The translations under genes were made by a program, and so were the position numbers. Source: Gemmatimonadaceae bacterium (GTDB taxonomy: Bacteria > Gemmatimonadota > Gemmatimonadetes > Gemmatimonadales > Gemmatimonadaceae). From it: 64,000 nt of DNA. Under the pieces are notes generated by a model. The model searched no databases. It worked only from the letters and a program-made list of their open reading frames with translations, and was not told where the DNA came from. Below, piece after piece: positions 10,000 to 49,320 of this stretch; position 1 is the stretch's first letter; every line of letters begins with the position of its first letter. The stretch is from assembly GCA_036273715.1 (NCBI GenBank), contig DASUHB010000069.1:1-64000 (forward strand), in the 5' to 3' direction.

Positions 10000-10010
10000 G
10001 CTTCCGCCCG

Positions 10011-10052
10011 CGCCGCCACGGGATCGCCGCCCCGGTTCACGCCGTGGCGGCG
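10011..10052. terminator. bidirectional hairpin between hsp20 and peroxiredoxin
   Basis: Perfect 11-bp arms CGCCGCCACGG (10011-10021) and CCGTGGCGGCG (10042-10052) lie between two convergent genes. The right arm falls inside the last codons of the peroxiredoxin gene. No long T-run follows on either side, so it may stop transcription inefficiently in both directions. Confidence 0.6.
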
Positions 10053-10525
10053 ATTTGCGTCAGGATCTCGTCGTTGGTCCGCTTGTGCCCCGGCGAATCC
10101 TCGATGTGCCGCCACGCGATGCGGCCGTCGGTGCCGACGAGGAAATACGCGCGATTGGCGAAGAACCGCTCGGGGATCAACACCCCGTAGGCGCGCGACA
10201 CGTCGCGCTTGAAATCACTGAGCAGGTCGACCCGCATGTTGTGCTTGGCCTTGAACTCGCGCAACGTGGGCACCGAATCGACACTGATCGGCAGAATGAC
10301 GACGTCCTTGTCGAGGAACTGGTCGAAGTCGTCGCTCATGTCGCACAGCTCGGCCGTGCACGTGCTCGTGAAGGCGAGCGGGAAGAACGCGATGAGCACG
10401 CGCTTCTTTCCACGGAACGAGGAGAGCGTGACCGGCGACCCGGCGGTCGAATCAGCGGTGAAGTCGGGAGCGACGTCGCCGACGGCCGGGCTCGAGCCCG
10501 CGGTCGTTGGAGCTGGTGCGGACAT
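10037..10525 (-). CDS. peroxiredoxin (AhpC/TSA family, PrxQ/Bcp-like)
   Basis: A 162-aa thiol peroxidase that reduces hydrogen peroxide and organic peroxides. The thioredoxin-like fold carries the peroxidatic Cys56 in FPLAFTSTCTAELC. A second Cys lies five residues on (Cys61), the spacing of the resolving cysteine in PrxQ/Bcp enzymes, so an intramolecular disulfide regenerated by thioredoxin is likely. A thioredoxin is encoded at 14152. GGAGGA is well placed before the ATG at 10525. The first 14 residues are a low-complexity extension. Confidence 0.92.
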   Translation of the reverse strand: MSAPAPTTAGSSPAVGDVAPDFTADSTAGSPVTLSSFRGKKRVLIAFFPLAFTSTCTAELCDMSDDFDQFLDKDVVILPISVDSVPTLREFKAKHNMRVDLLSDFKRDVSRAYGVLIPERFFANRAYFLVGTDGRIAWRHIEDSPGHKRTNDEILTQIAATA

Positions 10526-10600
10526 CCGGGCTTATCCTCCGTTGGTCGGGTGCGCGGAAGCTAGAGCGATGCTCCGTCGCCGGCAACGATGGCCGTTGCG

Positions 10601-11269
10601 TCAGGGGCTTTCGCGGCGCGGTGATTCGCGGGTCGCCTCTCGCCGCGGCTCGACGCGCGGTGCGCTCGATGCAGCGCTCGACGGCGCGCGAATGAGTTCT
10701 TCGGCCGCGAGCAGGCTGCGCGACAGCTCGGCCATCGTCATGTTGCGGCTCTGACTCGTGCGCTGCAGCACCTTGTACGCCGCGCTCTCGCTGATCGAGT
10801 CGCGCTCCATGAGAATTCCCTTAGCACGCTCGATGATTTTCCGATCTTCGAGCCGCTTGCGCAGGTCGTCGGTCTCGTGGCGCTGCTTCATCCACTCTTC
10901 GTGCCGCGCTTCGGCGATGGCGATGGCGGCGCTCAGTTGGGCGGCCGTCACCGGCTTTACCAGGTAGTGAAACACCGGCAGCATTGCCGCTTGGCCCAAC
11001 GTCTCGGCGTCGCTGTACGCCGTGACGATGATGATCGGGACGGGCCGGTCGATGTGGATCCGTTCCGCCGCTTCCAGGCCCGAGAGATGGGGCATGCGGA
11101 CGTCGAGCAGCACGAGATCGGGGCTCAGGGTGCGCGCCATGGAGACGGCGGTCACGCCGTCGGCAGCAATGCCGATCACGCTGTGGCCGAGTGAGCGCAG
11201 ATCTTGCTCGAGGCCCAGCGCGGTGACGCTCTCATCCTCGGCGATCAAGATTCGTAGCGGCGATGGCAA
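10601..11269 (-). CDS. response regulator with ANTAR RNA-binding domain
   Basis: A 222-aa AmiR/NasR/EutV-type antiterminator. The receiver domain (1-120) has phospho-acceptor Asp56 in LVLLDVRMPHLSG and Lys in YLVKPV. A helical linker and an ANTAR domain (about 135-195) with ERAKGILMERDSISESAAYK follow. ANTAR domains bind twin-hexaloop RNA and prevent termination. The gene is divergent, with 102 bp between starts, from a HisKA_2 kinase at 11372, the partner class used by EutW and PdtaS. The target RNAs are unknown. The last 25 residues are a low-complexity Arg/Ser/Pro tail. Confidence 0.95.
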   Translation of the reverse strand: MPSPLRILIAEDESVTALGLEQDLRSLGHSVIGIAADGVTAVSMARTLSPDLVLLDVRMPHLSGLEAAERIHIDRPVPIIIVTAYSDAETLGQAAMLPVFHYLVKPVTAAQLSAAIAIAEARHEEWMKQRHETDDLRKRLEDRKIIERAKGILMERDSISESAAYKVLQRTSQSRNMTMAELSRSLLAAEELIRAPSSAASSAPRVEPRREATRESPRRESP

Positions 11270-11371
11270 TGGTGGCTCCGGCGTGGCATCTTGAATTGAC
11301 GTACAGCCTGCAAGACACGGACCCTCGACTCCATTGAGTCCGTTCTAGCCGGTCGACCAGCGAGTTCGTAC

Positions 11372-12433
11372 ATGTCCGAAGCACGCATCGTGATCGTGGC
11401 TCCCTCGAAAGCGAATGTGCGCGCCGCGGCGACGACGCGTGCGTTGGCCCGTGCGCTCGAGCGGATGGACTTTCGCGTCGCGCACGCAACGCCCGCCGAT
11501 GCCGTGGACTCGGTGGACGAGCGGGTGGAAGCCGTGATCGTCGCCGCGACTCGTCCTATTGTGCTGCCGATCGCGCGCCGCCTCAAGGCCCGCTTTCAGA
11601 TGCCGCTGCTGCCGATCGTGGCGCTCACGGCGGCCCCGCGGCAGCGGCCTAACGGTGCGGCGCCAGACGTGTGGCTGCGCGCATCCACGCCGTGCGCCGA
11701 AGTGGCCGACCGCGTCGAAGAGCTGGTGCGCATCCGGCACGCCGAGCGTGAGATGGTCCGCTTGAGCACCACGCTGGCGGAGCTCGCAGCGGAGAATGGG
11801 CGGTTGTACGAGCGCGCGCGGCGCGACGCCGAGGCCACCGCGCTGCTGTTGCGCGAGCTGCAGCATCGCGTGCGAAACAATCTTGCGGCGATCCAGGCGC
11901 TGCTGGTGCTCGAGCGCCATCGCGCGCCGCCGCGCGCGCTGCCCGAAGCGCTCGACGTCGCGATCGCCCGATTGCGCAGCATGGCGGCGCTGCAGGATTC
12001 GCTCTTGCCGCACGCCAGCGAAGTGGAGCTTGCGTCGCTCGCGCGCGCGGTGGCGAACGGCGCGCTCGATGTGTTTGGCGCCGGCGATCGCGTGCGCTGC
12101 GACGTGACTGGCGGCGCCACGTTGCCGGCGCGCAGCGCGAGCGCGGTGGCCATCGTGCTCAACGAGCTGATCACCAACGCACTCAAACACGCCGATGCGC
12201 AGACGGTCGACGTCACGATCCGGCAGAATGGTCGCGCCGTCGAATTGGATGTCGCAGACGATGGACGCGGCATGCCGGCGACGAGCGCGAGCGGCAGCGG
12301 CTTGGTGATCGTGCGGGCGGTGGTGCAGAACGAGTTGGGCGGCTCGTTGTCCTACGTGCCATCGGCGTGCGGGACGCGGGCACGAATTGCGATTCCAGCC
12401 GCGGCCGGCGACGGCGCGGCAGGCGCCGACTGA
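11372..12433 (+). CDS. HisKA_2 family sensor histidine kinase with pseudo-receiver N-terminus
   Basis: A 353-aa soluble kinase. Residues 1-120 look like a receiver fold without a convincing acidic pocket or phospho-acceptor Asp. A coiled linker (125-155) follows, then a HisKA_2 motif with His165 in LLRELQHRVRNNLAAIQALL, and an HATPase_c domain (NELITNALKHA, VADDGRGMP). HisKA_2 kinases typically pair with ANTAR regulators, and this gene is divergent from one. No input domain such as PAS or GAF is visible. Its last 82 bp overlap the 3' end of the convergent copCD gene. Confidence 0.9.
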   Translation: MSEARIVIVAPSKANVRAAATTRALARALERMDFRVAHATPADAVDSVDERVEAVIVAATRPIVLPIARRLKARFQMPLLPIVALTAAPRQRPNGAAPDVWLRASTPCAEVADRVEELVRIRHAEREMVRLSTTLAELAAENGRLYERARRDAEATALLLRELQHRVRNNLAAIQALLVLERHRAPPRALPEALDVAIARLRSMAALQDSLLPHASEVELASLARAVANGALDVFGAGDRVRCDVTGGATLPARSASAVAIVLNELITNALKHADAQTVDVTIRQNGRAVELDVADDGRGMPATSASGSGLVIVRAVVQNELGGSLSYVPSACGTRARIAIPAAAGDGAAGAD

Positions 12434-13872
12434 GCGGCGCTCATCTGCATGTCGGCGGGCGGGCTCGAGGCGACCAGCACGGCGGTCGCCGCGAGCACGG
12501 CCGCCCCGGCCAGGAGCTCCAGGGCCGCGGAGCGGCGCAGCCGCCGCGCCGCGGCCTCGCTGCCTAACGACGGCCGCATGAGGCGCCAGTTGATGGCGCC
12601 CAGCGCCAACACGGTCGCGACCAGCGCGAGCTTGATGAGCAGCGTGCGCCCGTAGTCGCTGTCGACGAAGGCGTGCCAGCTGCCCAGGTGCAGCCAGGCG
12701 GCGATGACGCCCGTGGCCACCACTACGCCGGCCGACACCAGCGCCACCGGCGAGAACGCGTTGACGAAGTCCGCGGCCGCCGGTCCCCGCGCGCCGGGGT
12801 CCTGCCCGAGGCAGGCGGGCATGGCGACGAGCGCCACGCCTAACAACGTGCCTAACCACGCCCCGGCGGCCAGGATGTGCAGCGCGTCCGCACAGACGGC
12901 CAGTTCCCGCAACGATCCGGCGTCGGCCGCGTGTCCGCTCATCGAAAACGACAGCGCGAGGAGCACGGCGCACACCTCGGCGAACCGCCAGTGCGCGGTC
13001 CCCGCGCGCCGCGATGGGACGCCTGCGGCAAGCGCGATGATCGCTGCCGCGACCTGCAGCAGCCACGCCCAGCCCCACACCGTCGTGGTCACGACGCCGC
13101 CCACGTCCACCGGCATCGGCGGATTGCCGCGCAGGGCGGCGATTTGCGCCGCGAGACGCAGCGCGGCGTCGATGACCAGAAGCGCAGCCGCAAGACGGAG
13201 CACACCGGCGGCGCGACTGTCCACGCGCCCGGCCAGCTCGGCGCGGCCGGCGCTCGCGCGCGGCGTCACCCACCGCGCGAGCACGATGGATCCGACTAAC
13301 GCAAGCATCGCGACGAAGCCGAGCCAACGCACGGCGACATACCAGAACGACTCGACGTCGAAGCCGCCGGCCGAGCTCGTGTCCATTGCGGCCATCGATG
13401 GAGGAGCGGGCGACGGCGTCATCGTGTCGGGCGGCGGCGACGCAGGGGGCGCAGCGGACGCCTGCGGCGCGACGGCCGCCGCATGAGCCGAGATCGTAAA
13501 CGCGAACGAGCCGTGCACCGGGTGTCCGTCGTCGGACGTGGTCCGCCAACGAACGGTGTACCTGCCCGGCGGCAACGCGTGTATGAGCCCGACCGTCAGT
13601 GTGTGTTTCGGAACCTGCACGAGGCGCGGCGGACCGGAGTCGACGCGCGCGCCGGCAGCATTCAGCACTTCGATGTGCGTTGGCGCGAGCTGCGGATCTT
13701 CGCTGAAGGACAGGCCGACCGCGGCGGGCGCTGCGTCGAGCGTCGAGCCGGCGGGCGGCGCGCTCGACACGAGGATGAGATGCGCAAACGCCGCGCGCGG
13801 AATCGCGAGGCCGGCCAGAAGCACGGCGACGAACGACGCAATGCGCGCGCGACGCAGGCGCCGGGCGGCCAA
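12352..13872 (-). CDS. CopC-CopD fusion, copper resistance/import protein
   Basis: A 506-aa fusion of periplasmic CopC and inner-membrane CopD. The signal peptide (1-30) ends AAFA, leaving His31 as the mature N-terminus, as required for the CopC copper-binding histidine brace. A second conserved site is DDGHPVHGSF. A Pro/Ala-rich linker precedes about eight membrane helices of the CopD fold. Such fusions are thought to take up copper, for example for cuproenzymes; export is also proposed. The start is TTG at 13872, with GGAG about 13 nt upstream, so it is a weakly initiated gene. The 3' end overlaps the convergent kinase gene by 82 bp. Confidence 0.88.
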   Translation of the reverse strand: MAARRLRRARIASFVAVLLAGLAIPRAAFAHLILVSSAPPAGSTLDAAPAAVGLSFSEDPQLAPTHIEVLNAAGARVDSGPPRLVQVPKHTLTVGLIHALPPGRYTVRWRTTSDDGHPVHGSFAFTISAHAAAVAPQASAAPPASPPPDTMTPSPAPPSMAAMDTSSAGGFDVESFWYVAVRWLGFVAMLALVGSIVLARWVTPRASAGRAELAGRVDSRAAGVLRLAAALLVIDAALRLAAQIAALRGNPPMPVDVGGVVTTTVWGWAWLLQVAAAIIALAAGVPSRRAGTAHWRFAEVCAVLLALSFSMSGHAADAGSLRELAVCADALHILAAGAWLGTLLGVALVAMPACLGQDPGARGPAAADFVNAFSPVALVSAGVVVATGVIAAWLHLGSWHAFVDSDYGRTLLIKLALVATVLALGAINWRLMRPSLGSEAAARRLRRSAALELLAGAAVLAATAVLVASSPPADMQMSAAQSAPAAPSPAAAGIAIRARVPHADGT

Positions 13873-13970
13873 TGAATTCAGCGGCGCTCCTCCGCGTTGC
13901 GAGTGGGCGGAGACTGACTACGCAAAAGGCCCGGCGGCACTGCATCCGCCAGGCCTGGGATGATTGGCGA

Positions 13971-14043
13971 TGGAGCGTGCGAGGTTCGAACTCGCGACCT
14001 TTCGGTTGCAAACCGAATGCTCTCCCAACTGAGCTAACGCCCC
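13971..14043 (-). tRNA. tRNA-Ala (anticodon UGC)
   Basis: A complete 73-nt cloverleaf reads on the minus strand. The acceptor arms GGGGCGT and ACGCTCC pair with the alanine identity wobble G3-U70. The D arm is GCTC...GAGC. The anticodon arm is TTCGG-TTTGCAA-CCGAA, with UGC at 34-36. The T arm is GCGAG-TTCGAAC-CTCGC, and the discriminator base is A. CCA is not encoded. It lies between copCD and the thioredoxin gene. Confidence 0.97.
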
Positions 14044-14151
14044 GATGCAAGACGAAAGATAAAATCGCCCGCGTCGCGCGCGCCAGAGCATGCTTCCACC
14101 GTTCGTGCGACGGGTCTACGTTTCGCGAAGTCCCTTCGGCAGGAGCAGGCG

Positions 14152-14607
14152 ATGAGCACCCAGCCAGATACCGCGGCGTCGACGCAGCATCTCACCGTGC
14201 GCTGTCCATTTTGCCGCACGTGGAACCGTGTCGCCGCGGCGCGGGTGAGCGACCGGCCCAAGTGCGGGAACTGCGCGCGTCCCCTGCTCCTGGATCGGCC
14301 GCTGGCGGTCGACGACGAGTCGTTTCAGCGCACGATTACCGAGACGGACGTGCCCGTCCTGGTCGACTTCTACGCGGACTGGTGCGGACCCTGCAAGATG
14401 ATGGCGCCGCTGCTCGATGAAGTTGCGGCGACCCATCAGGGCGCTCTGTTAGTCACGAAGCTCGACACGGATCGCGCGCCGCTGACATCGCAGCAATACA
14501 ACGTGCGCGGCATTCCAACCACCATTCTCTTCCGCGACGGGCGCGAGGTCGCGCGCGAAGTGGGCGCCGTTCCGAAGGCGCGCCTCGAGGCGTTGGCGTC
14601 GAAGTAG
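14152..14607 (+). CDS. trxC: thioredoxin 2-type protein with N-terminal zinc ribbon
   Basis: A 151-aa thioredoxin. The N-terminal zinc ribbon has CPFC (Cys18/21) and CGNC (Cys38/41), as in TrxC/thioredoxin-2. The thioredoxin fold (about 50-151) follows, with active site WCGPC (Cys78/81) and the cis-Pro motif VRGIPTT. It reduces protein disulfides in the cytoplasm, probably including the peroxiredoxin at 10037. AGGAG precedes the ATG. The gene stands alone between a tRNA and a large palindrome. Confidence 0.95.
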   Translation: MSTQPDTAASTQHLTVRCPFCRTWNRVAAARVSDRPKCGNCARPLLLDRPLAVDDESFQRTITETDVPVLVDFYADWCGPCKMMAPLLDEVAATHQGALLVTKLDTDRAPLTSQQYNVRGIPTTILFRDGREVAREVGAVPKARLEALASK

Positions 14608-15018
14608 CCTCGCTCGACCGTCTTCGCCCTCGCGATCGAACCGGAGGCCGGACGGGCAGAGTGCTACGCTCATGAAGACGCGGACACAGCACGGTCACAG
14701 CGGACACGACACGAGGCGTACTGAGCCCTGAGGCGCGAAGGCAGTGACCGCGTGGCGAGGCTCCGCCCAAACGCCACATGGAGGGATCTACGACAAAAGC
14801 TCAAAAGGATAAGAACAAGGATGCAAGAGATGGGGTCGGCGCACCTCCACGCTTAACGACGCGTCGTTGAGGTTGCATATGCACCGACCCCATCTCTTGT
14901 ATCCTTGTGGTTATCCTTCACACCAGAGCGAAGAAGCTCTCCACACAGGCCTCCAGTTAGCCCTCACGTCGCTCTTCCAGCGGCCATAGTGCGCCGACGT
15001 GTACCGACCTGCTTCCCC
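14608..15018. other. long intergenic region with palindromic element
   Basis: About 410 bp without a plausible gene. 14608-14804 shows nothing I can identify. 14805-14918 is a large palindrome, listed separately. 14919-15018 is featureless. No open frame here has recognisable protein content. Confidence 0.6.
14805..14918. repeat. 114-bp near-perfect palindrome (REP/MITE-like element)
   Basis: Two 39-nt arms (14805-14843 and 14880-14918) are inverted copies with only four mismatches. They begin AAGGATAA and contain AAGAGATGGGGTCGG. The midpoint of the arms (14861.5) coincides with an inner perfect 14-bp palindrome, AACGACGCGTCGTT (14855-14868). The element encodes nothing, has no visible target-site duplication, and is more AT-rich than its surroundings. 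It resembles a non-autonomous palindromic element of the REP/RAYT or MITE kind. Confidence 0.8.
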
Positions 15019-15045
15019 AAAAAAAGGGCCGCCTAACGGCGGCCC
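15019..15045 (-). terminator. Rho-independent terminator of the act operon
   Basis: On the minus strand: GGGCCGCC-GTTA-GGCGGCCC followed by seven T residues (stem 15026-15033/15038-15045, T-run 15019-15025). It lies 17 bp past the actF stop. The stem and loop contain the over-represented word GCCTAAC/GTTAGGC. Confidence 0.95.
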
Positions 15046-15062
15046 TGTGACGATGGGCGCGG

Positions 15063-16397
15063 CTACTCGTGCGCCGGAAGCGGCTCCATCGTGTCCGGAT
15101 TCACCGGCACCTGCACCTCGTCGCGATAGGGCGACGTCATGAGCGTCACCCGGACGCGCGGGAACGCATCCATGAACGCGCGGTAGCTGAGTCCCCACAG
15201 ACCGAGGAAGCCGAGCGTCATGCCGATCTCCCAGATCCCGAAGAGGAAATGCGGCGCGCCCGCGTGCAGCGACGGATACACCTCGATGTAGCGCAGCAGC
15301 CAGATGCCCACCACGCTGCTCAGGGCGAAGATGAAAAACGTCGGCAGATACACCTTCGCCGCGCGCGACAACAGGCCAAAGAACGGAATCACGAACGCCA
15401 GGAAGACGATCGCGAGCGTCGCCCACTCCCAGGGCGCTTCCAGACGGCCGTGGAACCAGTGCGTCTCCTCCGGCATGTTGCCGTACCAGATCACCAGGTA
15501 TTGCGCGAACGTGAGGTAGCCCCAGAACGCCGTGAACGCGAACCCCAGTTTGCCCAGGTCGTGGAAGTGGTGCTCGGTGATCAGCTCTTCGGCTGCCAGG
15601 TGTCTGCGCCACCACATCACGAGCAGCGACCACGACATGATCGCGGCCAGCCACGCCCCCATGTAGAACCACCAGCCGTACATCGTGCTCTGGAAGTACA
15701 TGTCGAGCGACATCGACAGATCCCAGGAGTGCATCAGATAGAAGAAGTTGAACAGCAGGCACATGACCACGGCCAGCCAGCCCTGCATTGAGTGCGTCGA
15801 GTGGATCTCGCGGCGCTCCTCGCCGAACCCGCGTCGCATGCGGTCGCGAATGCCCCTGGCCCAGGCGGCGCCGAAGTCGTTAGGCAACACGCCCACGTCC
15901 AGCCGCACACACTTGTAGATGTACCACAGGCTGAGCACGGTGAGGATGAGGAACATCCCGATCTCGCGCGCGGCGAAGAAGCCCGGGCTCAGCCAGAACC
16001 GCTTCTCGGGAATCGGCGCTTCGCCGGAAAACCAGGGGAAGATGTGCTTGCCGCCGAGGATGATCACGATGAGCAGCAGCAACGCCACCGGCATGAACGC
16101 TACGTAGCCTTCGATCATCCGCACGATGGTGCGCGACCAACGCGCGGTCGTGATGCGCTGCACCGCGACCACGATCACGCCCGCCTGCGACACGCTGGCG
16201 AAGAACAGCCAGTTGAAGTGCATTGCCTGCCACATGCGATCCTGTCCGGTGAACGCGCCGATCAGGAATACGATGAGTCCGATGATGGCGAAGATGGCAC
16301 TCCACGTCGTGACCCACGGCGGCATCGGTTTGGACGTCAGCCGGACGAGTTCCTCGCGGCTGGGCATGTCTCGATCGGTCGTCGCGTGCGAGCTCAC
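15063..16397 (-). CDS. actF: alternative complex III subunit ActF (quinol-binding membrane subunit 2)
   Basis: A 444-aa polytopic inner-membrane protein with about ten helices, the last gene of actABCDEF. ActF is related to NrfD/ActC-type subunits and belongs to the quinol:cytochrome c/cupredoxin oxidoreductase that replaces cytochrome bc1. Supporting features are the His-rich helix FWLSPGFFAAREIGMFLIL, MHSWDLSMSLDMYFQSTMYG and HFHDLGKLGFAFTAFWGYLTF, all typical of the family. The ATG at 16397 overlaps the actE stop (16394) by 4 nt (ATGA). A strong terminator follows. Confidence 0.93.
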   Translation of the reverse strand: MSSHATTDRDMPSREELVRLTSKPMPPWVTTWSAIFAIIGLIVFLIGAFTGQDRMWQAMHFNWLFFASVSQAGVIVVAVQRITTARWSRTIVRMIEGYVAFMPVALLLLIVIILGGKHIFPWFSGEAPIPEKRFWLSPGFFAAREIGMFLILTVLSLWYIYKCVRLDVGVLPNDFGAAWARGIRDRMRRGFGEERREIHSTHSMQGWLAVVMCLLFNFFYLMHSWDLSMSLDMYFQSTMYGWWFYMGAWLAAIMSWSLLVMWWRRHLAAEELITEHHFHDLGKLGFAFTAFWGYLTFAQYLVIWYGNMPEETHWFHGRLEAPWEWATLAIVFLAFVIPFFGLLSRAAKVYLPTFFIFALSSVVGIWLLRYIEVYPSLHAGAPHFLFGIWEIGMTLGFLGLWGLSYRAFMDAFPRVRVTLMTSPYRDEVQVPVNPDTMEPLPAHE

Positions 16398-17146
16398 GGG
16401 CGGCCTCCCTTGGATGCGGCGGACGGCTTGGTGGTGCTAACGCTGTCGGTCGGTGTCGCCGCCTGCGGCGGCAGCGCGGCCGTATCCTCGAGCTCCGACA
16501 TCCACGCCGCGACATCCTGCGGACGGTACGGGGCCGGTCGCGTTGGGCCGGTGCGCGTGTAGCCCGGCACCTGGCGTCCGTTCTCTCCGGGGAACCCGGG
16601 GGGCGAGGTGTCGGCGGTGACACCGGGGAGTTTGCCTTGCAGCGCGCGCACGTAATTCACCACGTCCCAGCGATCCATGTCTTCGATGCGGTCGTACGTG
16701 GGCATCAACCCGCGGCCGTTGCGGATCATGCCATAGATGTAGCCGTCGGTACGGTTCTTCGTGACATCGGTGAGCAAGCTCGGCGCGGGCACGCCGTACT
16801 GCACCGCTCTGCCGTTGCCCGCGCCGGATGCACCGTGACAGACCGCGCAGTTGATCTGGAAATACTTGCGGCCGTTGTCCAACGACGCGCGGGTCGGCGC
16901 ATGCGGATTCTGCAAGTTGGACATCGAGTCGATCGTGCCCGGCAGTTGCTGGTACGACACCACGTAGGCCGGTTCGGGATTTCCGGTGAGCGGCACCGAG
17001 TAGATGGGCGTGCCGCGCATCGGGGTCACCGTGTCGCCGGCATACTGCCATTGCCACGGCTTGATTTTGGGCTGCTGCTTGAAATCCGTGAACCACTCGC
17101 AGCCGGTAGCCGCGACGGTCGCGGCGAGCAGCAGCGCGACGCGCAT
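16394..17146 (-). CDS. actE: alternative complex III subunit ActE (monohaem cytochrome c lipoprotein)
   Basis: A 250-aa periplasmic cytochrome c anchored as a lipoprotein. The N-terminus MRVALLLAATVAATGC ends in a lipobox. A single haem motif, CAVCH, lies in the c-type domain, with a downstream methionine in GRGLMPTYDRIEDMDRWDVV as probable axial ligand. ActE passes electrons from the multihaem ActA/ActB side towards a terminal oxidase or carrier. I choose the ATG at 17146 because it creates the signal peptide. A longer in-frame extension would run back into actD coding sequence. The C-terminal tail after about 215 is low complexity. Confidence 0.92.
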   Translation of the reverse strand: MRVALLLAATVAATGCEWFTDFKQQPKIKPWQWQYAGDTVTPMRGTPIYSVPLTGNPEPAYVVSYQQLPGTIDSMSNLQNPHAPTRASLDNGRKYFQINCAVCHGASGAGNGRAVQYGVPAPSLLTDVTKNRTDGYIYGMIRNGRGLMPTYDRIEDMDRWDVVNYVRALQGKLPGVTADTSPPGFPGENGRQVPGYTRTGPTRPAPYRPQDVAAWMSELEDTAALPPQAATPTDSVSTTKPSAASKGGRP

Positions 17147-17159
17147 CGTGCCTAACGCT

Positions 17160-17660
17160 TTACCGCTCACCGCGCACCTCCACCGCCCCGTGCTTCTTGA
17201 GCGTATCTGAAACGTCGGTCTGCCGGTCCGGCGGGCATTCCACCCACACGCCGAAATTCGCGTTGCTGAACCGCTCATCGTAGCCCACCGTCATCGTGAT
17301 GCGCGGAATGCGCGATACGACGAACAAGCCGAGCACCGTCGCGAGCGAGCCGATGAGCACCATGACCTCGAAGCTGATGATCGTGTACGGCACCCACGAC
17401 GGCACCACCTTGCCGCCGACGACTAACGGCCAGTAGTCCGAGATCCAGATCGGAATCCAGTAGCCGAACGTCGCGCCGAGCAGTCCGCCGATGAGCGTGT
17501 AGCGGCGGACGACGCTCGGACCCGTGTTCAGCAAGTGCTCCAGCTCGTGGCGCGGCGCGGGCGAATACACCCGGATGTCTCCGGCCTTGAGCTTCTTGAC
17601 CGCTGCGACCGCATCGACCGTCGCGTCGAGCTCGCGGAATACTCCGACGATGCCTTCCAT
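17160..17660 (-). CDS. actD: alternative complex III subunit ActD
   Basis: A 166-aa protein matching ActD (DUF3341-type). The soluble N-terminus MEGIVGVFRELDATVDAVAA is followed by two membrane helices (about 60-80 and 92-118) and a cytoplasmic tail with TMTVGYDERFSNANFG. ActD is a structural subunit of alternative complex III without cofactors. The ATG at 17660 overlaps the actC stop by 1 nt (TGATG), showing translational coupling. The next gene, actE, starts 13 bp after its stop. Confidence 0.92.
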   Translation of the reverse strand: MEGIVGVFRELDATVDAVAAVKKLKAGDIRVYSPAPRHELEHLLNTGPSVVRRYTLIGGLLGATFGYWIPIWISDYWPLVVGGKVVPSWVPYTIISFEVMVLIGSLATVLGLFVVSRIPRITMTVGYDERFSNANFGVWVECPPDRQTDVSDTLKKHGAVEVRGER

Positions 17661-19111
17661 CAGTCGCGCTCCCCCGGCGTCTCCGGCTCGTACTCCAGGT
17701 GCATGCCCGCGACGTCGATGCCTTCCACCGCGTGCGCCACTCTGAGGGGCGGAGGGATGATCTCCTTGATCTCGGCGATCGCGACGACGGGGAAGTTCTT
17801 GATGAAGAGCAGGAACCACATCGCGAACCACCCGAAGCTGCCTAACAGAATCGCCCAGTCGATGTACGTGGGGGCATACCGCGTCCACTGCCACGGCTCG
17901 AATTCGTGGGACAGCGACGGATCGAAGATCACGAAGCGCTCGAACCACATGCCGAGGTTGATGAACAAGGACAGCGTGAACAGCCACGTCGTATTGCGAC
18001 GCAGTTTTTGCCAGAATAGCGTGAGCGGCAGAATGGTGTTGCAGGTGAGCATGATCCACGCCGCCCACCACCATTGGCCGAACACCCGGTTGTACCAGAA
18101 CGAGTGCTCGATCTCGTTGCCGCCGTACCAGCCGATGAAGAATTCGGTGATGTACGCCGTCGCCACCACGAGTGCCGTGAATAGACACAGCTTCGCCGCG
18201 GCGTCGAGGTGGTTGAGCGTGACGTAATGCTTGAGGTTGAACCAGCGCCGGATCGGGATGATGATGGTGAACACCATGCCGATGCCGGAGAAGATCGCGC
18301 CGGCCACGAAGTACGGTGCGAACAACGTCGCGTGCCAGCCCGGCGTGTTGGCCATGGCGAAGTCGAACGACACCGTGGAGTGCACCGACAGCACCAGCGG
18401 CGTCGAGAACGCGGCCAGGAACAGATACGCGCGCGCGAAGTGCCGCCACTCGAGGTCCGAGTTGCGCCATCCGAACGACAGCACCCCGTAGATCCGTTTG
18501 CGCAGGGGATCGCGCTCGCGGTCCCGGATGGCGGCGAAGTCGGGCAGGAGTCCCAGGTACAGGAACGTCGCCGAAACGGTCAGGTACGTGAGGATCGCGA
18601 ACACGTCCCAGACTAACGGAGACTTGAACTGCGGCCAGATGAGCCGCCAGTTCGGGTACGGGATCAGCCAGAAGAATTTCCACGGGCGCCCGAGGTGAAG
18701 AATCGGGAACAAGCCCGCGGTCATGATCGCGAACACGGTCATCGCTTCCGCGCACCGGTAAATCGTGGTGCGGAATCCCGCGCGGAAGAGATACAAGATC
18801 GCGGAGATCAGCGTGCCCGCGTGTCCGATACCGACCCAGAACACGAACGTGACGATGTACACGCCCCACATGACGGGCGGCGAATATCCTGCCACGCCCA
18901 GGCCCATGTACACCTGCCACATCCAGGCGCCAAGCCCGATCAGCAGGCAGACGACCGCCAGCAACAAGCCGGCGAGCCACGCCTTGGTCGGATTGAGAGT
19001 GCGGCGGATCTCCTCGGTGACCTGGTCGTACGTCTCGACCGACGGAAGCTGAATGTTCGCTTCCGGTATGTTAGGCCCGGTTTGGACTCGCGGTCGTGCG
19101 ACAGTGGCCAT
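17660..19111 (-). CDS. actC: alternative complex III subunit ActC (NrfD-like quinol-binding membrane subunit)
   Basis: A 483-aa NrfD/PsrC-like membrane protein with about ten helices. It is expected to hold the menaquinol oxidation site and to dock to the iron-sulfur part of ActB. Family blocks visible include GVYIVTFVFWVGIGHAGTLI, HLGRPWKFFWLIPYPN, HSTVSFDFAMANTPGWH and GIGMVFTIIIPIRRWF. It sits 3 bp after actB and is coupled by overlap to actD. The long soluble N-terminus (1-45) is typical of ActC. Confidence 0.94.
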   Translation of the reverse strand: MATVARPRVQTGPNIPEANIQLPSVETYDQVTEEIRRTLNPTKAWLAGLLLAVVCLLIGLGAWMWQVYMGLGVAGYSPPVMWGVYIVTFVFWVGIGHAGTLISAILYLFRAGFRTTIYRCAEAMTVFAIMTAGLFPILHLGRPWKFFWLIPYPNWRLIWPQFKSPLVWDVFAILTYLTVSATFLYLGLLPDFAAIRDRERDPLRKRIYGVLSFGWRNSDLEWRHFARAYLFLAAFSTPLVLSVHSTVSFDFAMANTPGWHATLFAPYFVAGAIFSGIGMVFTIIIPIRRWFNLKHYVTLNHLDAAAKLCLFTALVVATAYITEFFIGWYGGNEIEHSFWYNRVFGQWWWAAWIMLTCNTILPLTLFWQKLRRNTTWLFTLSLFINLGMWFERFVIFDPSLSHEFEPWQWTRYAPTYIDWAILLGSFGWFAMWFLLFIKNFPVVAIAEIKEIIPPPLRVAHAVEGIDVAGMHLEYEPETPGERD

Positions 19112-44408: not shown

Positions 44409-47303
44409 TCATGGTCGATAGCGCCACTCCAGGTAAACGCTCGTTCGGTGACGTGTCGGGCGGTCGAGCGAATACGCGATGCCGCCCAGCACGTGCACGT
44501 TCGGCACGTGGATGGCCCAGATGCCGGTTTCATCCAGCGACGCTTCGAGTCCTACATATCGGTGCCAGTCGTGCAGCTCGTTGCCGGCGCTGCCGCCCCA
44601 GAGATATGGGCTGAACAACCAGAGTGGAAGGTCGACGCGATAGGTCGCGACGCGCTCGCCGCCAGCGAGGCCGAGCGGCGCGGCCGGCATCGCGGCGCGC
44701 TGCGACGCCAGCGCATCGTCGAAGAGCGACGGGCTCGTCCCGCCGAGAACGAACTGCTCGTACGCCGGTGCGCCGCGCGCCGACTGTCCGACCATGGCCT
44801 GCGCGCCGAGCCTCCAACCGGCGCGCGACACCTCGAATGCACCCGAGACCGTGCCGCGCGTCCACGATGTGTCTGCCGTCCGGCCGGCGGCTCCGGCGAT
44901 TCCGACGCGCTCGCCGAACCGCCATTCGTTAGGCGTTTGCCGGAACGCACCGCGATAGTCGGCGAATGCGACCATGCGCGTTTGGCGCGCGTATGCGTCG
45001 CCGTCCAGTTGCCCGAGTGAGATGCCGGTCCGGATAGCGTGCGCGGCGCCCGTGTACTGTCGTTCGAGCGACGCGACGGCGTCGCCGCCGGCATAGCGAG
45101 CGTCGAGAAATACCGGCGCCGCGAGGCCGCCGTGCTGGCGCGACGGATGTTCGTCCGCGTAGAAGCCTTCGGCGGCAATGGTGACGGGCCATCCGCGCCA
45201 GGCGGCGGCGAGCGATCCGCCGCGCCAGGTGCCGCGATCTCCGTACACGCCGGTCGCGATCCACGTTAGGCGCCCGACCGGATCCGTGCCCGCCACCACG
45301 GCGCCCAGCGACTTGCCCTCGGCCCCGACGCCGAGCGTCGGCAGGACGATGACGTTGCGCGGCCCGAGGCCGTAGCTGCGCGACGGCTCGAGCGCCGCGC
45401 GGGGAAACGAGTCGGCCGGCGCTCGCGGCGGTATCGTCGCCGGCTGGAGCGCCGGGGATGTCGCGAGCGTCGCCGGCAGCAGCGCCGTGTCGGCAACTGC
45501 AGCGAGGTCGAGCCCATCGGCGTGGAGGCGCAGGAAATAGACGGTGTGGCCCGCGTGACCGGGCTCCGGATCGGACGCCGCGCTGGCCAGCGCCGTCAGC
45601 GCGCGCGACGTGCCCGTCGCCAGCTCGACCACGGCGACGTTCGGAATGCCGCCGGAATCGGTGATGCAGACGACCGACGTGTCGCCCGGCAGAAACGCCG
45701 CCTCGTACCGGTTGACACCATCGTCAGGCCCAACTGGGTTAGGCACCAGCGCCGGCGCGCGCAGATCGATCGACGCCAGCCGCCACGCGCCGTCGCGCTG
45801 CACGCTCACGATCGCCCGGCCCCCGTCGCTCGAGTAGCGCGGCCGGTAGTACACGACGTGCGGAGACCCGGCGACGATGGTCCGCATGGCGCCGGTCGCC
45901 AGGTCGACGACCACCACGTCGCACACCCCGCCGACGCACCGGTCGGCAATCGCGTGCCGGCCGTCCGGCGACGGATCGGCCGTGCGGATGCCCGCGTCGT
46001 GCGTGATCCGCCGGACCGCGCCGGTGGCGATGTTCCACGCGAACAGGTCGTCGCGCTGCGCGCCGTCGCCGCGTCCGGTCCGCCGGACGAGCAGGATCTC
46101 GCGCCCGTTAGGCATGAATCGCGGTTCGCCGTACGCCGCGCCGGCGCTCGGATACAGCACCGCGAGCGGCGCCTTGGGCTTCGGCCGCCAGGCGATCGCC
46201 GGAACGTCCTCGGGATCGCGCGACAGCAGCGCCGCACGCGCCCGCGCCGCCGCCGCGTCCGGCGTATCCGTCGCCGTCTTCCATACCACCACGCGGCTCG
46301 GCGCATTGCGTTGGGCGAGCACGATCGCCATGAGCGATCCGTCCTGCGAGACCGCGGGAGCGCCCGTGCTCCACGCCAGCGCCTGCACGCTGGTGCCCCG
46401 CCCGGAGTCCGGTCGCATCGCCACCCGGCGCGCCACGTCGCGCTCCACCTCCAACGCGGCACCAGTGAGCTCGACGCTGAATCGCCCATAGAGATCGGCG
46501 GGATAGCCGCCGAACACGCCGGCGAACGCGTCGTCGAAGCTGCGATCGCGGCGCGCGCTCATGCGGCGCCAGAGATGCACCAGGCTCGAGTCGCCGCGCC
46601 GCGCCACGAGCCAGTCGAGAAACGCGCTGCCCGCCAGGTACGCCATCTCGCCGCCCTCGAAGCGCGGGTCCACGTCGAGCTGCGCATAGTTAGGCAACTT
46701 CCCTTCGAGCGCCCATTCGCGCAGCACCGCGGCACGCCAGGCGCTGTGTGGTCGCCCCGATCCGGTGAGCTTCCCCTCGATGTAGGTGGCGTAGCCCTCG
46801 TCCACCCAGCGCGGCGCTTTGATCGCGATGGGCCCCAGCCGCAGCGGCGAGAGACGGGTCAACCACCGCTCGACGGGGTTTCTCGTCGGCCGCGCAAGAT
46901 GCGCGATGTGCGTGTACTCGTGCACCGAGAGCAGCTCGGCCCAACCGCGGCTGTCGCCGATGCCGCTCGTCGGGTCCGGAGGGGTCGGCCAGAAGAAGAT
47001 GACCGGATCCTCGAGCAGCGGCACCGCAAAACCATTCGAGAGATTGTTCGGATCCTCGACCACCAGCGTCACGCGATGCGCCGGCGCGTTGCCGACCGCC
47101 GCGCTCACCGCATCGTGTACAGCGTCGATGCGCGACGCCATGTCGAGCGTCCACGATGCCGCGGACGCCGGATAGTGAATCACGAAGTACCTGGTCTCGA
47201 TCGTGCGCCACGCGAGAGACGGAATGGTGAGCGCCTGCGCCGGCAACGGCCGATGGCTGCACAGCAGCGCGGCCGCGCACGCGAGGAAGGTCGTGAGACG
47301 CAT
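44409..47303 (-). CDS. secreted peptidase-like / beta-propeller / outer-membrane barrel protein
   Basis: A 964-aa exported protein. The signal peptide (1-23) ends PLPAQA. An N-terminal gluzincin-like domain (about 30-290) has HEYTH (an HExxH zinc motif) and a downstream WVDEGYATYIEG with the third-ligand Glu. A central TolB/WD40-like (PD40) beta-propeller (about 300-620) has repeats such as PRFMPNGREILLVRR and ADPSPDGRHAI. The C-terminal 300 residues alternate in the pattern of an outer-membrane beta-barrel and end in YLEWRYRP. The function is unknown; a surface-anchored protease is plausible. I choose the ATG at 47303 because it creates the signal peptide. Confidence 0.82.
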   Translation of the reverse strand: MRLTTFLACAAALLCSHRPLPAQALTIPSLAWRTIETRYFVIHYPASAASWTLDMASRIDAVHDAVSAAVGNAPAHRVTLVVEDPNNLSNGFAVPLLEDPVIFFWPTPPDPTSGIGDSRGWAELLSVHEYTHIAHLARPTRNPVERWLTRLSPLRLGPIAIKAPRWVDEGYATYIEGKLTGSGRPHSAWRAAVLREWALEGKLPNYAQLDVDPRFEGGEMAYLAGSAFLDWLVARRGDSSLVHLWRRMSARRDRSFDDAFAGVFGGYPADLYGRFSVELTGAALEVERDVARRVAMRPDSGRGTSVQALAWSTGAPAVSQDGSLMAIVLAQRNAPSRVVVWKTATDTPDAAAARARAALLSRDPEDVPAIAWRPKPKAPLAVLYPSAGAAYGEPRFMPNGREILLVRRTGRGDGAQRDDLFAWNIATGAVRRITHDAGIRTADPSPDGRHAIADRCVGGVCDVVVVDLATGAMRTIVAGSPHVVYYRPRYSSDGGRAIVSVQRDGAWRLASIDLRAPALVPNPVGPDDGVNRYEAAFLPGDTSVVCITDSGGIPNVAVVELATGTSRALTALASAASDPEPGHAGHTVYFLRLHADGLDLAAVADTALLPATLATSPALQPATIPPRAPADSFPRAALEPSRSYGLGPRNVIVLPTLGVGAEGKSLGAVVAGTDPVGRLTWIATGVYGDRGTWRGGSLAAAWRGWPVTIAAEGFYADEHPSRQHGGLAAPVFLDARYAGGDAVASLERQYTGAAHAIRTGISLGQLDGDAYARQTRMVAFADYRGAFRQTPNEWRFGERVGIAGAAGRTADTSWTRGTVSGAFEVSRAGWRLGAQAMVGQSARGAPAYEQFVLGGTSPSLFDDALASQRAAMPAAPLGLAGGERVATYRVDLPLWLFSPYLWGGSAGNELHDWHRYVGLEASLDETGIWAIHVPNVHVLGGIAYSLDRPTRHRTSVYLEWRYRP

Positions 47304-47402
47304 GAGTCGATAATGATGGGCCGGCGCACACGCCCAAACAACGCGCCCCTCCACGCGCACCCGATTTGGTGTCATCTTGCGGTGCGGCCGACCAGGAGAT
47401 GA

Positions 47403-47882
47403 GTGGTGAGCAGTACGACGCTGGACTCCGTTCTCGCGAATGTCCCGTACGGCACCTGTCCGCTTCCCGGAATCGGCGCCGCCGGCCAACCGCGCGCGAA
47501 CGATTGGCAGGCGCTCGCCGATGCCGGCGTGCGCACGATCGTCGATTTGCGTCCGGAGACCGAGCCGCACGGACACGACGAGCCTGCCGCCGTGCGCGCG
47601 GCCGGGATGACGTACGTGACGCTGCCGGTCACGCAGTTCACGTTGGGCGATGCACAGTTCGATGCGCTCCGCGAGCTGTTGCGCGACCCCGCGCGCCGGC
47701 CGATCGTGGTGCACTGCGCATCATCGAATCGCGTCGGCGCATTGCTGTTGCCGTATTTCGCGTTGGACGAGGGGCGGCCGCTGGAGCAGGCGCTCGAGCT
47801 GGCGGTCGACGCGGGACTGCGGAGCCAGGATCTGGCGTCCATGGCCGTGGACTACGTGCGACGCCACGCGGCGTCCGCCTAA
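47403..47882 (+). CDS. DUF442/protein-tyrosine-phosphatase-like sulfur transferase
   Basis: A 159-aa phosphatase-fold protein. The active-site loop VVHCASSNRVGALL has a Cys-X4-Arg spacing, as in DUF442 proteins, rather than the Cys-X5-Arg of true tyrosine phosphatases. DUF442 domains are fused to persulfide dioxygenases in Blh proteins of sulfide-detoxification operons, and a persulfide dioxygenase-like gene follows here after 10 bp. The start is GTG at 47403 or 47406. AGGAG (47394-47398) favours the second. The stop TAA belongs to a GCCTAACG word. Confidence 0.82.
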   Translation: MVSSTTLDSVLANVPYGTCPLPGIGAAGQPRANDWQALADAGVRTIVDLRPETEPHGHDEPAAVRAAGMTYVTLPVTQFTLGDAQFDALRELLRDPARRPIVVHCASSNRVGALLLPYFALDEGRPLEQALELAVDAGLRSQDLASMAVDYVRRHAASA

Positions 47883-47892
47883 CGGAGGCACC

Positions 47893-49320
47893 GTGTTTTT
47901 GCGCCGGTTCTACGAGGATCACATCGCCCAGGCCAGCTACCTGCTGGGCTCCGAGTCCACCGGCGAGGCGGTGGTGGTGGATCCGAATCGCGACGTCGAA
48001 CAGTACGTGGCCGCGGCGGCTTCCGAAGGCATGCGCATCACGCACGTCACCGAAACGCACATTCATGCCGATTTCGTGTCCGGGAGCCGCGAGCTCGCCG
48101 AACGCACCGGAGCCACGCTGTTGCTCTCGTCGGCCGGCGATCCCTCGTGGCAGTATGCGTTCGCACGCCAATCCGGCGCGCGGCTGCTCGGGGACGGCGA
48201 TCGCTTCGAGGTCGGCGCCGTCCGAGTCGACGCGATGCACACGCCGGGACACACGCCCGAGCATCTCACGTTTCTCATCACCGACACGGCCAGCGCCGAT
48301 CGCCCGATGGCGGCGATCACCGGCGACTTCGTGTTCGTCGGCGACGTTGGACGTCCCGACCTGCTCGAGCGCGCCGCCAAGGTGGCGGGTACGATGGAAT
48401 CGGGCGCGCATGAGTTGTTCCGCGCGCTGCAGCGGTTCAAGACCCTGCCCGACTATCTGCAACTCTGGCCCGGACACGGCGCCGGCTCGGCCTGCGGCAA
48501 AGCGTTAGGCGCGATGCCGCAATCCACGTTGGGCTACGAGCGGTTGTTCAACTGGGGACTGGCCGAGGAGGACGAGCTGCGCTTCGTGGCCACGGTGCTC
48601 GACGGACAACCGGAGCCGCCGGCCTACTTCGCGACGATGAAGCGCGTCAACCGGGAGGGCCCGCTCGTGTTAGGCGGGCTGCCCCACCCCGAACGCCTCG
48701 GCGCCGCGCGACTCAAGCCCGCCCTCGATGGAGGCGCGACGGTCATCGACACCCGACACGCCGCCGACTTCGCAGCCGGCCATGTGCCGGGCACGATCAA
48801 CATTCCGCTCAACCGCTCGTTCGCCACCTGGGCGGGATCGCTGCTGCCGTTGGACCGGCCATGTCACGTCATCGTCGACGACGAGGACGCACCGCTGCTC
48901 GCCGCGCGGGCCGCGCGCGTGCTGGCCCTCATCGGATTCGATCACATCGGCGGGTATTTCGGCGCCGAATCGATCGACGAGTGGCATGCATCGAGCGGCG
49001 CGCTCCAAACGGTGCCGACGCTCACTGCGTCGGAGCTGCGTTCACGCCTGGCGGAGGGTGGCGTCACGGTGATCGATGTCCGCAACGACCACGAATGGCA
49101 GGCGGGCCATCTGCACGGTGCGCAGTGGATCCCGCTCGGATCGCTCGCGCAGCGCGCCGACGAGCTGCCCCGCACCGGCACGCTTGTGGTGCACTGCCAG
49201 GGCGGCGCCCGCTCGTCGATCGCCGCGAGCCTGCTGCTGGCGGCGGGGCGGCCGCACGTGGCCAATCTGGCCGGCGGGTTCTCGGAGTGGGCCGCGGGCG
49301 GCTTCCCGGTGGAGCGCTAA
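47893..49320 (+). CDS. CstB-like persulfide dioxygenase with pseudo-rhodanese and rhodanese domains
   Basis: A 475-aa three-domain protein. The metallo-beta-lactamase domain (1-245) is of the ETHE1 type: THIHADFVSG, HTPGHTPEHL, GDFVFVGDVGRPDL and LWPGHGAGSACGKA. A first rhodanese-like domain (about 265-365) lacks the catalytic Cys (IVDDEDAPLL). A second rhodanese domain (about 380-475) has it (VVHCQGGARSSIA). This matches the CstB arrangement that oxidises persulfides to thiosulfate in sulfide detoxification. The GTG at 47893 has GGAGG just upstream. No BigR/CstR-type repressor is nearby. Confidence 0.9.
   Translation: MFLRRFYEDHIAQASYLLGSESTGEAVVVDPNRDVEQYVAAAASEGMRITHVTETHIHADFVSGSRELAERTGATLLLSSAGDPSWQYAFARQSGARLLGDGDRFEVGAVRVDAMHTPGHTPEHLTFLITDTASADRPMAAITGDFVFVGDVGRPDLLERAAKVAGTMESGAHELFRALQRFKTLPDYLQLWPGHGAGSACGKALGAMPQSTLGYERLFNWGLAEEDELRFVATVLDGQPEPPAYFATMKRVNREGPLVLGGLPHPERLGAARLKPALDGGATVIDTRHAADFAAGHVPGTINIPLNRSFATWAGSLLPLDRPCHVIVDDEDAPLLAARAARVLALIGFDHIGGYFGAESIDEWHASSGALQTVPTLTASELRSRLAEGGVTVIDVRNDHEWQAGHLHGAQWIPLGSLAQRADELPRTGTLVVHCQGGARSSIAASLLLAAGRPHVANLAGGFSEWAAGGFPVER

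Follow-up and report, generated by a model that had tools for sequence, protein, structure and literature searches.

A predicted outer-membrane zinc protease with a TolB-like propeller and an Omp85-related barrel in Gemmatimonadota

Results

Architecture and coding frame

A gene on the minus strand of a 64,000-nucleotide stretch from a Gemmatimonadaceae bacterium (assembly GCA_036273715.1, contig DASUHB010000069.1, positions 1 to 64,000; the whole stretch is referred to here as the window) encodes a protein of 964 amino acids that, judged by its sequence relatives, belongs as a divergent member to a family spread across Gemmatimonadota and akin to the WD40-Omp85 class. Its chain very probably joins a zinc-peptidase domain, a TolB-like β-propeller and an outer-membrane β-barrel. 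The host genome, which comprises 4.34 Mb in 81 contigs, encodes four proteins of this protease–propeller–barrel architecture, and we distinguish three paralogous types: the A-type, which is the window's own; the B-type, represented in the host by L061; and the C-type, represented by L062, with L063 as a further paralogue counted there. The A-type open reading frame runs from an ATG at 47303 to a stop codon at 44409–44411, and the chain is ordered as a signal peptide (residues 1–23), a zinc peptidase (approximately 28–290), a propeller (approximately 300–613) and a C-terminal domain (approximately 640–964), the boundaries of these parts having been compared with the translated DNA. The features are as follows.

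44409..47303, minus strand: whole coding sequence of the A-type protein, with gluzincin, TolB-like propeller and Omp85-like barrel parts (open reading frame and 48 relatives)
47235..47303, minus strand: predicted signal peptide, residues 1–23, ending ..LPAQ (by inspection; Q23 in 29 of 31 aligned rows)
46434..47222, minus strand: gluzincin-type zinc-peptidase domain, approximately residues 28–290 (profile–profile matches to B- and C-type N-terminal domains)
46908..46922, minus strand: HExxH zinc-binding and catalytic motif, HEYTH, residues 128–132 (conserved in all relatives that cover it)
46797..46799, minus strand: predicted third zinc ligand, E169, in a W-x-x-E-G-Y-A-T motif (conserved)
45465..46406, minus strand: TolB/PD40-type β-propeller, approximately residues 300–613 (NCBIfam, Pfam and structure profiles)
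45921..45938, minus strand: cysteine pair C456/C461 (CVGGVC) in the propeller (invariant in 30 of 30 rows of the A1 alignment described below)
44412..45386, minus strand: putative C-terminal Omp85-derived outer-membrane barrel, approximately residues 640–964 (profile comparison)
44412..44414, minus strand: C-terminal proline P964, replacing the usual terminal aromatic residue (proline in 46 of 48 relatives)

A Pfam search with the whole window protein alone returns no match, and the domain assignment therefore rests on its relatives. The named ones, which come from a contig scan by short exact patterns that returned three loci, lie in a Gemmatimonadaceae metagenome-assembled genome (full-length chain, 78% identity) and in a Gemmatimonadetes metagenome-assembled genome (two partial pieces, 94% identity). 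The existence of relatives at the protein level confirms the coding strand; the guanine–cytosine content by codon position in this frame is 0.71/0.57/0.86, and an opposite-strand open reading frame of 626 amino acids at 45522–47402 is taken to be a shadow frame. No conserved lipobox cysteine is seen in the N-termini that were inspected. The 30-row A-type alignment, A1, omits L012, whose frame is interrupted by TGA, as well as the partial proteins L032 and L033.

The zinc-peptidase domain

By motif and profile the N-terminal domain is a gluzincin outside any named family, and by conservation its zinc site is intact. Among the 48 A-type relatives, three are partial proteins that do not reach this part of the chain, and the other 45 all have HExxH and WxxEGYAT, the motif that holds E169. 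HExxH and the WxxEG glutamate are likewise kept in 30 of 30 B-type and 30 of 30 C-type proteins. The spacing between H132 and E169 is 36 residues in 28 of the 30 A1 rows and 35 and 38 in the other two. The original prediction had taken HEYTH and a downstream DEGYATY (residues 168–174) as the marks of a gluzincin-like domain at the N terminus, and the conservation of this region in the covering relatives bears that out. Seven further positions, counting E169 among them, are identical throughout an alignment of 88 peptidase domains (W166, E169, G170, A172, G183, Y222 and G225). This alignment holds 28 A-type, 29 B-type and 31 C-type rows, the last including L063, and leaves aside two of 30 A-type and one of 30 B-type rows with short N-termini; as its rows were excised by their own HExxH, it provides no independent test of that motif.

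Profile–profile comparison matches the A-type peptidase domain to the B-type N-terminal domains at 100% and to those of the C-type at 95.9%. Among solved structures, a 51-row peptidase profile weakly matches the putative hydrolase 3cmn (E = 0.006) and collagenase G (E = 0.02–0.06), and both alignments superpose the HExxH and W-x-x-E-G regions. At E ≤ 0.1, the Pfam families BSP and Peptidase_MA_2 each match 18 of the 51 members, M9 matches 14 and M48 matches three, while the NCBIfam flagellinolysin model matches 26, with a best value of 1.5e-11. For the window domain itself no named gluzincin family scores above its cut-off (Peptidase_MA_2 gives 12.9 bits against 32.4), and among the other members the matches are spread over BSP, M9 and flagellinolysin, with no one family running through all. 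The window protein is predicted to bind zinc and to be proteolytically active.

The propeller

The NCBIfam TolB model matches the window protein at E = 8.4e-10, with a score of 38.1 bits that lies far below the equivalog cut-off of 343.15 bits. PD40 is found in 25 of 30 A1 members at E ≤ 1, and the A1 profile matches solved TolB chains at about 2e-16, in agreement with the PD40-type repeats that had been noticed mid-chain. AlphaFold reaches a mean predicted local distance difference test (pLDDT) score of about 80 over residues 431–480 only. The invariant cysteines C456 and C461 may form a disulfide.

The C-terminal domain

The homology of the A-type C-terminus to Omp85 is convincing solely by way of the B-type proteins, a route that supports it at the level of profiles. 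Aligned by HHalign, the C-termini of the A-type (47 rows) and the B-type (30 rows) reach a probability of 90% (P = 1.6e-6, 304 columns) and a score of 54.2, where 25 column shuffles give 14.7 ± 2.6 and at most 20.3, and the alignment runs end to end, with 31–340 of 343 placed onto 25–396 of 399. With 30 A-type rows the probability is 25.8%, and the score of 35.4 compares with a maximum of 23.0 in 60 shuffles. The 47-row set consists of the window protein and 46 of its 48 relatives, with L012 and L144 omitted, and holds three partial proteins whose C-terminus is complete (L033, L154 and L155). The B-type C-terminus in turn matches 20 BamA-like Omp85 barrels at 94.6% over 195 columns. It is through this B-type comparison, not through Pfam, that a barrel is assigned to L061, whereas the C-type proteins L062 and L063 score 34.9 and 25.7 bits with Pfam Omp85 against a cut-off of 24. 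The A-type C-terminus matches neither its own propeller profile (0.1%) nor its own peptidase domain (0.2%), and does not resemble the second propeller that the original prediction had set against a barrel.

The barrel-like alternation that had been described for the last 300 or so residues is also reproduced, with 17 strand-like amphipathic windows in the last ~320 residues against 10.2 ± 2.1 (maximum 16) in 200 column shuffles. The same count shows no excess over shuffles in the propeller (9 against 12.4) or in the peptidase domain (11 against 12.0). Because known BamA-like barrels stay within the shuffle range (22 against 18.0 ± 2.6, maximum 24), the alternation test is weak alone and is used here as a supportive one. 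AlphaFold does not resolve the C-terminus, the full chain being modelled at pLDDT 37.5 from four close sequences and residues 636–964 alone at 26.5 from three.

Outer-membrane barrels end, as a rule, in an aromatic residue, and those of the Omp85 family carry the signature motif (V/I/L)RG(F/Y). Neither mark is usual in the A-type branch. The motif (V/I/L/F)RG(F/Y) does not occur in the last 300 residues of the window protein, and within the last 250 residues it is present in 3 of 48 A-type proteins, compared with 20 of 30 B-type, 27 of 30 C-type and 20 of 20 BamA-like proteins; the three A-type cases (L011, L015 and L023) read LRGY and fall within the final 14 residues, in the last strand and off the usual place. 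The terminal residue is phenylalanine in 30 of 30 B-type proteins and aromatic in 30 of 30 C-type proteins (W in 27, F in two and Y in one). The BamA-like set was drawn as those 20 of 30 loci whose longest open reading frame ends in F, so that its terminal residue is no evidence. A-type proteins end instead in proline, the exceptions among the 48 relatives being L012, with its interrupted frame, and L144. The A-type barrel would accordingly be derived from Omp85, or be a divergent relative of it, without the two usual marks.

Two observations stand beside these counts. The terminal tryptophan of 27 C-type proteins is aromatic but unusual, and MPAxPxG, considered as a replacement for the VRGF motif, was dropped when found in 5 of 48 A-type proteins.

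Paralogues and distribution

The distribution figures cover Gemmatimonadota genomes. With the window protein as query, and two candidates scored per genome, matches are found in 194 of 298 genomes of the phylum at 1e-5, many of them through the peptidase domain of a paralogue only; the A-type proper, taken as better than 1e-80, is present in 53 of the 298, the window's own included. A B-type query finds matches in 62 of 101 genomes at 1e-20 and a C-type query in 99 of 101 at 1e-40, many of the C-type matches, L063 among them, spanning the peptidase and propeller only, and that in genome G075 the barrel end only. The same domain order, which the original prediction had proposed looking for across Gemmatimonadota, is thus widespread in the phylum. 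Viral contigs scanned with A1 gave no relative. In a FastTree tree of the 88 peptidase domains the A-type and B-type each fall on one branch, with low support for the A-type (0.447), and we draw no conclusion from it.

Gene neighbourhoods

We read 38 A-type loci, namely the window, L031 and 36 others, five of which have less than 3.3 kb upstream. The names LemA, M48, TPR, rhodanese and lactamase-fold come from Pfam, while TilS, Hpt and FtsH are names that we presume from the sequences. A divergent tilS-hpt-ftsH cluster lies upstream of the A-type gene in 21 of the 38 loci, and lemA-htpX (the latter an M48 protease) lies directly upstream in five. In three, which have the arrangement of the window, the flanking genes are a TPR gene and a lactamase-fold/rhodanese gene. 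In three other A-type loci there is a gap of about 2.4 kb to tilS, and in the two of them that were read (loci L166 and L167) it is filled by genes that we take to be glnK-amtB-like. An operon of lemA, htpX and the A-type gene was considered when it stood at 4 of 18 loci; with more loci it stands at 5 of 38, and the link is treated as weak.

At 24 of the 30 B-type loci, the gene comes next after a same-strand gene for an N-acetylmuramoyl-L-alanine amidase (Amidase_3, 8.7e-32), which suggests that a peptidoglycan amidase and an outer-membrane protease share a conserved operon; among the six loci without the amidase, one has only 0.3 kb upstream. In the host genome the B-type frame (L061, 1455–6289 of contig C5) overlaps the end of the Amidase_3 gene on the same strand.

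In the window, the divergent neighbour of the A-type gene at 47650–49320 combines, by Pfam, a lactamase fold and two rhodanese-domain stretches in one protein, which presumably resembles a persulfide dioxygenase–rhodanese fusion. Further away, positions 12001–16000 have a marked AT skew (0.173) relative to the rest of the window. A search of 10000–18000 against Rfam at gathering thresholds finds a tRNA-Ala at 13971–14043 only, so that the AT-skewed stretch is no rRNA operon.

Discussion

We favour, at about an even chance of its being right in full, a reading of the window protein as an outer-membrane-anchored, periplasm-facing zinc protease that acts in envelope quality control or maturation and whose barrel serves as an anchor. 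The chain would be exported by the Sec pathway and its C-terminal, Omp85-derived β-barrel then inserted by the β-barrel assembly machinery (BAM), and this barrel would tether the secreted zinc metallopeptidase to the outer membrane. Propeller and peptidase would hang into the periplasm, where the propeller, on the models of TolB and BamB, may recruit or position a partner or substrate, and where the HExxH...E site would cleave envelope proteins near the outer membrane. A periplasmic position of these two domains is likely, since Omp85 proteins have their soluble N-terminal domains in the periplasm and PlpD, too, keeps its enzyme domain there. The barrel would be an anchor and not a working insertase, a reading that follows from the loss, in the A-type branch, of the Omp85 signature motif and of the aromatic C-terminal residue. 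As for function, the likeliest role would lie in the quality control of envelope proteins or in their maturation, comparable to that of BepA in Escherichia coli, and we put it forward tentatively, at somewhat less than an even chance. This mechanism would suit both the amidase gene next to the B-type gene and the protease genes found near some A-type genes, though neither is decisive.

Several results weigh against this reading. Compared directly with Omp85, the A-type C-terminus gives a weak match (4%, P = 0.01 and 62 columns with 47 rows; 0.7% with 30 rows), and compared with the C-type C-terminus it gives none (0.1%). Pfam Omp85 matches 0 of 30 A1 members at E ≤ 1, and hmmsearch with the A-type C-terminal profile against 1605 sequences returns no B-type protein at E < 1e-3. 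At E < 1 that search lists three B-type proteins (0.026, 0.06 and 0.55), one BamA-like protein (0.59) and no reversed decoy, together with six unrelated frames at 0.034–0.86, so that the B-type proteins are not separated from noise. AlphaFold gave no reliable model of the peptidase domain. The window's own locus is without ftsH and htpX neighbours and has the TPR and metallo-β-lactamase/rhodanese genes instead, and the neighbour link to quality control is weak in any case because tilS-hpt-ftsH is an ordinary housekeeping cluster.

The failure of Pfam to find Omp85 in A1 members, the lack of a terminal aromatic residue and the C-terminus left unresolved by AlphaFold would all suit a soluble, β-rich C-terminal domain, whether a sandwich or an extra propeller, and with it a free or peripheral protease of the periplasm or a secreted one. 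We regard such a protein as very unlikely, given that the C-terminus matches that of the B-type from end to end, with the B-type in turn ending uniformly in F and matching BamA-like barrels, that it bears no profile resemblance to the propeller, and that its strand alternation exceeds that of shuffles. A different objection concerns the function of the barrel. Characterised Omp85 proteins mostly assemble or translocate proteins, and the C-type and many B-type barrels retain a VRGF/Y-type motif; the protein might then be an assembly factor, a fusion in the manner of BamA and BamB that inserts or exports outer-membrane proteins, as Heinz and Lithgow suggested for WD40-Omp85, with the peptidase fold serving as a binding or scaffold module. 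This is improbable for the window protein, as the residues of the zinc site, which a mere scaffold would not need, are kept in every covering relative, the A-type barrel has no signature motif, and the approximately 27 residues between propeller and barrel are too few for a POTRA domain.

The barrel could also export the propeller and protease, which would then act at the surface or as a secreted protease on proteins outside the cell, an idea formerly put forward for PlpD. M9 collagenase and flagellinolysin, which we take to be extracellular enzymes, are among the nearest peptidase profiles, and four such proteins in the host genome could fit a degradative lifestyle. Against this, Omp85 barrels, that of PlpD included, normally hold their N-terminal domains in the periplasm, the B-type gene adjoins that for a cell-wall amidase at most of its loci, and the near-universal C-type matches fit housekeeping better than nutrition, all of which makes a surface location unlikely. 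The original prediction placed a protease and propeller on the outer membrane. The three-domain reading stands, with its barrel reached through the B-type comparison, and surface proteolysis finds no support given the periplasmic N-terminal domains of Omp85 proteins. The window protein is probably a housekeeping enzyme of the cell envelope rather than a surface weapon.

A more far-reaching form of the periplasmic protease reading, which we consider speculative and rather unlikely as a whole, would make the family a phylum-wide quality-control machine of the outer membrane, with a catalytic gluzincin and a TolB-like propeller fused to an Omp85 barrel. In the window's branch the barrel would have given up the signature motif, and exchanged the usual aromatic signal for a nearly invariant proline, to become a non-insertase protease anchor that BAM would have to recognise through a non-standard C-terminal signal. 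A conserved protease site would give the WD40-Omp85 class a concrete function, proteolysis at the outer membrane, and the breadth of the C-type matches (99 of 101 genomes) suggests a function central to the envelope of these bacteria, in which the outer membrane has received little study. The proline conserved at the chain end bears directly on the strictness with which barrel assembly depends on its C-terminal signal.

Among known systems, TolB has only the propeller in common with the window protein. The gluzincins (ColG, flagellinolysin, Peptidase_MA_2 and BSP) share with it HExxH followed by W-x-x-E-G, along with profile matches, although the matches of the window protein and of the A4 profile are marginal or below curated cut-offs and no single family covers all members. 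In E. coli, BepA (YfgC) is an M48 protein in its own right, with neither propeller nor barrel. Like the protein proposed here, it is a zinc protease that works beside an Omp85 protein at the outer membrane, where it cleaves LptD on BAM (PMC8423444). In contrast, the window protein joins protease, propeller and barrel in one chain, and its family members match BSP, Peptidase_MA_2 and M9 more than M48. PlpD and the patatin-like Omp85 proteins also have an enzyme domain N-terminal to an Omp85 barrel, and in PlpD this domain, which for years was believed to be exported, was located in the periplasm alone (PMC11116518). Whereas PlpD combines patatin and POTRA domains, the window protein combines a protease and a propeller.

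PF00149 is a phosphoesterase family. It defines a separate class named 'metalloprotease' in the classification of Heinz and Lithgow (2014, PMC4104836), two of whose result sections describe no protease for WD40-Omp85 and whose main text contains no word starting with 'peptidase'. Among open-licence PubMed Central papers, judged by titles and abstract openings, no other paper on a protease–propeller–barrel architecture was found. A close likeness is to the WD40-Omp85 subfamily itself, which PMC4104836 defines, likens to a fusion of BamA and BamB and places among the non-POTRA architectures, and whose proteins were still listed as not well characterised in a 2024 paper (PMC11116518). The window protein shares with this subfamily a TolB-like propeller followed by an Omp85-type barrel, and differs from it in having a complete zinc-peptidase domain before the propeller and, in the A-type, a barrel without the signature motif and the terminal aromatic residue.

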